Source: Karstenula rhodostoma CBS 690.94 (taxonomy: Eukaryota > Ascomycota > Dothideomycetes > Pleosporales > Didymosphaeriaceae). From it: a stretch of 64,000 nt of DNA. Position numbers and translations under genes: made by a program. Positions within the stretch are counted from its first letter, which is position 1, and each line of letters begins with the position of its first letter. The notes beneath the pieces are model-generated. The model saw nothing but the letters and a program-made list of their open reading frames with translations, was not told the DNA's origin and made no database searches. Shown here in pieces: positions 9,815 to 9,999 of this stretch. Location: positions 1,131,397 through 1,195,396 of the forward strand of contig MU001499.1 of assembly GCA_010093485.1 (NCBI GenBank), given 5' to 3'.

Positions 9815-9850
9815 CACCCAACCTAGGATCGAACTTGCGCCTTCTGACAA
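9815..9850 (-). other. tRNA-like 3' fragment (B-box relic)
   Basis: On the minus strand a GTTCGATCC B-box-like motif is followed by a T run at its 3' side. No matching acceptor or anticodon arm can be drawn upstream, because the Pol III terminator of the initiator tRNA lies there. I read this as a relic or chance match. Confidence 0.25.
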
Positions 9851-9878: not shown

Positions 9879-9999
9879 TAGCTGAGCTACGTTTCGATCG
9901 TAGGTCTGTATTGCTGTTAGTGGACGATCCTGTAGATGATTGAGTGTCACGTACCCTCCGGGTTATGAGCCCGGCGCGCTTCCGCTGCGCCACTCAGCT
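9879..9999 (-). tRNA. Initiator tRNA-Met (CAT), interrupted in the variable loop
   Basis: With bases 9906-9954 removed, the remaining 72 nt fold perfectly: acceptor AGCTGAG/CTCAGCT, D stem GCGC/GCGC, anticodon arm CCGGG-CTCATAA-CCCGG, a five-base variable loop AGGAC, and T arm CTACG-ATCGAAA-CGTAG. It shows the hallmarks of eukaryotic initiator tRNA: an A1-T72 pair, three G-C pairs closing the anticodon loop, and A54/A60 in an ATCGAAA T loop. An A box (TGGCGCAGCGG) and a B-box equivalent are present, and a T6 terminator follows. The exonic part shows no decay. The 49-nt insert between positions 46 and 47 is not at the canonical 37/38 tRNA intron site, so the tRNA splicing endonuclease would not be expected to remove it. 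Confidence 0.9.
9906..9954 (-). other. 49-nt spliceosomal-type intron or introner-like insert inside the tRNA-Met gene
   Basis: The insert starts GTACGT, contains CACTAAC with the branch adenine about 13 nt before the end, and finishes ATACAG. These are the same signals and length as the protein-gene introns of this window. Exact removal restores a complete initiator tRNA. The border is ambiguous by one G. Confidence 0.75.

Follow-up and report, generated by a model that had tools for sequence, protein, structure and literature searches.

Results

A split initiator tRNA gene

The window, a 64,000-nucleotide stretch of contig C8 in a genome of 44.3 Mb and 29 contigs, carries on its minus strand a tRNA-iMet gene (9999..9879) whose two exons (9999–9955 and 9905–9879) are arranged around 49 nt of additional sequence. 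The layout of the locus is as follows.

9955..9999, minus strand: 5′ exon of tRNA-iMet, positions 1–46, with the A box and the CAT anticodon; identical to the intact gene L002
9906..9954, minus strand: spliceosomal-type intron of 49 nt in the variable loop, at 46/47; absent from this place in the paralogs L002 and L003
9916..9922, minus strand: branch-point-like CACTAAC, read from the sequence; the presumed branch nucleotide, an A at 9917, lies 11 nt from the 3′ end of the intron
9879..9905, minus strand: 3′ exon of tRNA-iMet, positions 47–73, with the T arm and the 3′ acceptor strand; identical to L002
9862..9867, minus strand: T6 run, read from the sequence as the presumed Pol III terminator
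9826..9834, minus strand: extragenic B-box-like GTTCGATCC, a motif match 44 nt past the end of the iMet gene

When joined, the exons (72 nt) match the intact iMet gene L002 (G000:C2:516155–516226) letter for letter, and L002 is accepted as tRNA-Met(cat) by ARAGORN and scores 60.8 bits against the Rfam tRNA model. Initiator tRNAs are distinguished by A1:U72, a GGG/CCC anticodon stem, A54, and A60. By its identity with L002, the exon set of the window gene is complete for an initiator tRNA, the transcription and charging of which are predicted. The internal B-box region, GATCGAAAC, lies inside the 3′ exon 9879..9905. The insert opens with GTACGT, contains CACTAAC, and closes with ACAG; its border at 46/47 was numbered by hand and could be shifted by one base, GT..AG being the canonical choice. 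The first-pass annotation had described a 49-nt insert splitting an otherwise perfect 72-nt initiator tRNA, splice-like signals within that insert, undecayed exons, and an intact terminator, and each of these descriptions is borne out: the signals are present within 9906–9954 on the minus strand, the exons are those of L002 base for base, and a T6 run occupies 9867–9862. A loose GTRNG..TRAY..AG test is passed by about 9 in 100,000 random 50-mers of the window.

The window gene is not detected by ARAGORN, whether or not introns are allowed, and falls below the Rfam gathering score; at a lax threshold it is reported with 28.2 bits, just short of the cut-off of 29, and with a false 3′ end. Two familiar classes of intron were considered for the insert and rejected. 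A canonical 37/38 tRNA intron is ruled out by the position of the window insert at 46/47, and a group I or group II intron, which has a catalytic core and is usually hundreds of nucleotides long, is ruled out by the 49–53-nt size of the inserts and by the fact that nothing in the window reaches an Rfam gathering score.

A search for other initiator copies, which the first-pass annotation had suggested as a check, recovered two more: L002 (C2), which is intronless, and L003 (C5), which is split at 38/39 by a 53-nt insert of the form GTAAGT..TACTAAC..AATCAG. The bodies of the two iMet inserts show no likeness above that of shuffles (0.40 versus a mean of 0.50). Two of the three iMet genes found carry unrelated spliceosomal-type introns at two places.

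Interrupted tRNA genes across the genome

The census of tRNA genes combined an Rfam tRNA search (at least 54 rows, with 62 of 1177 candidates scored) with four DNA searches that used the genome's own tRNA genes. Together with the window gene, it yielded 98 distinct places, seven of which were judged decayed or partial, giving 91 non-decayed tRNA genes found. At least 12 of these 91 carry a 49–53-nt insert of the form GT..YTAAY..AG, and two Gly-GCC-like places, L089 and L092, which count among the seven decayed ones, stand outside these figures. The inserts occupy six positions, numbered by hand: 5/6 in the acceptor stem of Thr-CGT (one of the two copies found), 20/21 in the D loop of Pro-AGG (two of three), 25/26 in Ala-CGC (two of two), 38/39 and 46/47 in iMet (L003 and the window gene, respectively; two of three), and 60/61 in the T loop of Gly-GCC (five of six). 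Intronless copies were found for four of the five isoacceptors (iMet, Thr-CGT, Pro-AGG, and Gly-GCC), and none was found for Ala-CGC. The census is incomplete, as Phe, His, Tyr, elongator Met, Leu-AAG, and other isotypes were not found in it; ten tRNA sequences used as probes for the missing isotypes gave no match.

The interrupted Pro, Ala, and Gly genes additionally hold an ordinary intron at 37/38, so that their precursors would need two splicing machineries. Because ARAGORN gives some interrupted genes the wrong name (L026 and L084, for example), we assigned the Pro and Ala anticodons by manual reading. Many tRNA genes of this genome (L017, L037, L041–L043, and others) have canonical introns, variable in sequence, that ARAGORN sometimes misplaces, which results in a wrong anticodon name. 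The genome also contains decayed or mosaic copies of Ala, Gly, Glu, and Gln tRNA genes (L100, L089, L092, L099, and L110), which are unlike the interrupted genes.

Splice signals of the inserts

Insert borders were placed from intronless paralogs for ten genes (iMet, Thr, Pro, and Gly) and from homology to tRNA-Ala-AGC for the two Ala-CGC genes. Every one of the 12 inserts starts with GT and ends with AG within a length of 49–53 nt, the 5′ splice site being GTACGT, GTGAGT, or GTAAG followed by T, C, or G. A YTAAY branch-like motif is likewise present in 12 of 12, with its A located 9–11 nt from the intron 3′ end; for iMet_C5 and Ala_C9, the upstream TACTAAC and GCTAAT were used over a later match, which puts the A at 11 and 10 nt, respectively. 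Judged by their borders and branch motif, the inserts would be U2-type spliceosomal introns, and lariat excision and exon joining are predicted. The split Thr gene, with a first exon of only 5 nt plus leader, would be a hard substrate for such splicing.

A different machinery can be envisaged: the tRNA splicing endonuclease would recognise a bulge-helix-bulge fold and remove the inserts as non-canonical tRNA introns, a route proposed for Cyanidioschyzon merolae. Many ordinary 37/38 introns exist in the same genome, and, in the accessible part of a review, archaeal introns of such a kind are placed at 20/21 and 25/26 and nucleomorph introns in the D and T arms (PMC4090602). Removal by the endonuclease would, however, leave unexplained why GT..YTAAY..AG, with its A 9–11 nt from the end, recurs in all 12 inserts, and we consider it quite unlikely. 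A pairing test for the bulge-helix-bulge fold detected no complete 4-bp central helix in any of the 12 genes, nor in the positive control, the 37/38 intron of Lys-CTT.

Conservation of exons and divergence of intron bodies

The exons of the Ala-CGC pair are identical and share the same intron site, with intron bodies at shuffle level (0.34 versus a mean of 0.38); the five split Gly genes have identical exons and intron bodies that are 47–86% alike (ten pairs); and the two Pro introns have bodies 79% alike between identical exons. T-runs lie downstream of all 12 interrupted genes. Kept exons and splice signals accompanied by drifting intron bodies would be the pattern expected of working introns; gene conversion could partly account for the identical exons.

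These observations bear on the proposal that the interrupted genes are dead copies that acquired their inserts after loss of function. The presence of intronless copies of iMet, Thr-CGT, Pro-AGG, and Gly-GCC fits this proposal for four of the five isoacceptors, decayed tRNA copies exist here (the five listed above), and the available portion of the same review supposes that single D- or T-arm-interrupted copies among synonymous eukaryotic genes are pseudogenes (PMC4090602). Against it, intact exons and a following T-run are seen in 12 of 12 genes, the introns retain their splice signals despite diverged bodies, and Gly-GCC is split in five of the six copies found. Six positions in five isoacceptors also mean that the interrupted genes are not one decayed family. 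The first-pass annotation had made a dead copy depend on unspliced or absent transcripts from the locus together with intact intronless initiator genes elsewhere, and of the two the second holds: an intronless iMet gene does exist and the window locus by itself is not shown to be needed, whereas Ala-CGC was found solely with an intron (two of two). We regard dead copies as very improbable.

Recent introner-like insertion, by which mobile introns would have landed in tRNA genes by chance, is a claim about origin that is compatible with removal by the spliceosome. Introner-like elements occur in other Dothideomycetes and typically have many near-identical copies in a genome. The iMet paralogs differ (46/47, 38/39, and none), which implies that some introns at least were gained after the gene copies arose. 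The window insert, however, has no second copy in the genome at E ≤ 1e-3 (a 49-nt query, with very common words skipped) and none in the window with up to 3 mismatches, and the likeness of its body to those of iMet_C5, Thr_C17, and Ala_C12 (three pairs) is within the shuffle range. We place this origin at the same long odds as dead copies. Finally, an assembly or sequencing artefact, by which the first-pass annotation had allowed that the insert might disappear altogether, has a negligible probability, since 11 other tRNA genes repeat the design and the 12 are spread over nine contigs with a proper splice-site pattern at each, which makes assembly error very unlikely.

Comparison with mRNA, U6, 5S rRNA, and SRP RNA genes

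The putative spliceosomal introns of the tRNA genes were compared with other introns of the same genome. The one mRNA intron bounded by protein alignment in this comparison, located in the Bub1 gene of the window, is 53 nt long and reads GTGAGT..CACTAAC..AAG, the same form as the tRNA inserts. The first Bub1 intron did not give a clean border, and neither did a single look at the RING gene. The best named match of the Bub1 protein is from Paraconiothyrium brasiliense (85%), and those of a glycerate kinase are from Paraphaeosphaeria sporulosa (89%) and Didymosphaeria variabile (87%), a likeness that indicates the Didymosphaeriaceae, within the Pleosporales.

The U6 gene (L122, G000:C3:1527880–1528520) is interrupted by a 54-nt intron, GTGAGT..TACTAAT..CGCAG, and has one B box inside the intron and a second one downstream. 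About 330 bases from it lies a reverse-oriented, 5′-truncated, intronless U6 copy that keeps DNA beyond the terminator; it could be a spliced retrocopy but, given the retained flanking DNA, may equally predate the intron, and it carries no weight in the argument below.

Among 38 rows for 5S rRNA, 27 align without a break across 118 or more of the 120 bases. Inspection by eye of the ten places that make up the remaining 11 rows, several of which begin at base 21, revealed no GT..AG intron, and these places look truncated or chimeric. In several 5S copies (L125–L130) the first 20–26 bases are missing, and sequence that varies but is partly similar stands in their place; these copies could be chimeric pseudogenes or a repeat derived from 5S rRNA. 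One SRP RNA match runs across the whole model, and no spliceosomal-type intron was seen in this model-level match. Two further rDNA-related places were noted, an AT-rich, mutated 5.8S copy of the kind that repeat-induced point mutation would leave (L058, C28) and an isolated 5.8S/ITS-like fragment adjoining an apparent gene (L057, C13).

B boxes beyond the terminators

With the T-loop intron at 60/61, the Gly B box loses its final bases to intron sequence. The motif GTTCRANNC is found past the terminator in four of the five T-loop-split Gly genes (C7a, C10, C7b, and C2), Gly_C13 being without it, and in all three iMet genes found, which themselves have a deviant B box, GATCGAAAC. It is absent downstream of the uninterrupted Gly and the Thr, Ala, and Pro genes that were checked (eight in all). 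As background, the motif occurs within 130 nt downstream in 4 of 54 other tRNA genes that have sufficient flanking sequence, one of these matches being the next tRNA gene, and in the upstream flanks of 3 of 56 genes. The contrast between 7 of 8 iMet and split Gly genes and 4 of 54 other tRNA genes has a Fisher p of 5e-6, in a test devised post hoc with the pattern already seen. If the pattern is real, the split genes would still be under selection for transcription. Two Val-AAC genes, L013 and L076, have ordinary B boxes and, in addition, GTTCGATTC 26–30 nt downstream.

Discussion

We propose, with a probability of roughly 0.87, that a working Pol III iMet gene is interrupted here by a U2-type spliceosomal intron, the 49-nt insert, and that it is one of at least 12 tRNA genes of this genome with such an intron. 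The proposal is built on gene structures, the conservation pattern, and motif counts, and from these it predicts transcription, splicing, and the machinery involved. The first-pass annotation had left two options for the locus. One, splicing of a Pol III transcript by the spliceosome, is well supported by 12 split tRNA genes with identical exons between copies and diverged intron bodies, by the U6 intron, and by the downstream B boxes; the other, an introner-like insertion, is unsupported at this locus, the genome (word-filtered) and window searches having returned no further match to the insert.

In the mechanism that we envisage, Pol III would produce a precursor with leader, intron, and T-tail, from which the spliceosome would excise the GT..CTAAY..AG intron like an mRNA intron, before or alongside end trimming. 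RNase P and tRNase Z would complete processing, and the Pro, Ala, and Gly precursors would also need the tRNA endonuclease and ligase. In the T-loop-split genes, TFIIIC probably binds instead to a B box that lies past the terminator, as in yeast SNR6. It counts against the proposal that a failure to splice most of these genes need not be lethal, since an intronless copy also exists for four of the five isoacceptors.

That at least 12 tRNA genes, among them two of the three iMet genes found, are split at six places suggests that the spliceosome may mature tRNAs in this ascomycete. We lean, with less assurance, toward a broader reading in which the spliceosome would be a regular tRNA-processing enzyme in this lineage, acting on several tRNAs including iMet, some of which would also pass through the tRNA endonuclease; Pol III promoters would have been rebuilt with downstream B boxes, and translation initiation would be tied to spliceosome capacity.

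By the textbook account, a dedicated endonuclease removes eukaryotic tRNA introns and Pol II transcripts are the substrates of the spliceosome, U6 and rDNA being rare exceptions. A spliceosomal intron in 12 of the 91 tRNA genes found, or about 1 in 8, would, if true, overturn this division between endonuclease and spliceosome. It would also mean that uncapped Pol III transcripts that are short and fold strongly, with a first exon of as little as five bases plus leader, can serve as substrates of the spliceosome. The natural paralog pairs would then offer a test of how introns enter non-coding genes. Tools such as ARAGORN and Rfam can miss or mislabel such genes, and other fungi may therefore hide them, given that ARAGORN missed or misnamed genes and that Rfam scored the window gene below its cut-off.

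Among the papers listed by our searches of the open-access PMC literature, we found no earlier report of spliceosomal introns in tRNA genes, and the accessible parts of PMC3978253, PMC11782384, and PMC6461891 do not mention them. The 2014 review cited above describes, in its available text, non-canonical introns as rare in eukaryotes and names nucleomorphs and C. merolae, and the word stem "spliceosom" is absent from that text (PMC4090602). The introns in question resemble the present ones in lying outside 37/38, D and T arms included; those of Guillardia theta, however, are 3–24 nt long, whereas the inserts described here are 49–53 nt and have spliceosomal signals (PMC4090602, available text). 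The same text credits certain splicing endonucleases with removal and calls that of the shortest G. theta introns unknown (PMC4090602).

Canonical 37/38 introns, which are handled by the TSEN endonuclease, are likewise found in nuclear tRNA genes and are present in the split Pro, Ala, and Gly genes, but the inserts differ from them in position, borders, uniformity of length, and branch motif. With regard to promoters, the yeast U6 gene SNR6 has an extragenic downstream B box. The B-box motif beyond the terminator of the iMet and T-loop-split Gly genes is similar in arrangement, although these are tRNA genes in which TFIIIC binding is predicted.

The closest parallels to the proposed spliceosomal introns come from other structural RNA genes. 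Lichen rDNA contains mRNA-type introns that are removed by the fungal splicing machinery, according to the accessible part of the source (PMC8527467); in that case the genes are rRNA genes transcribed by Pol I in lichen-forming fungi, whereas here they are tRNA genes of a Pleosporales fungus, read by Pol III. In fission yeast, U6 is a Pol III gene with a spliced mRNA-type intron, as is proposed here, and the available text of the source holds that the U6 intron is thought to have arisen by reverse splicing near the catalytic bases of U6, and its reference list includes a title on B boxes within the introns of Schizosaccharomyces U6 genes (PMC10484740). Unlike fission yeast U6, the present case concerns tRNA genes, whose products are not parts of the spliceosome, and it extends over five isoacceptors, six positions, and many copies.
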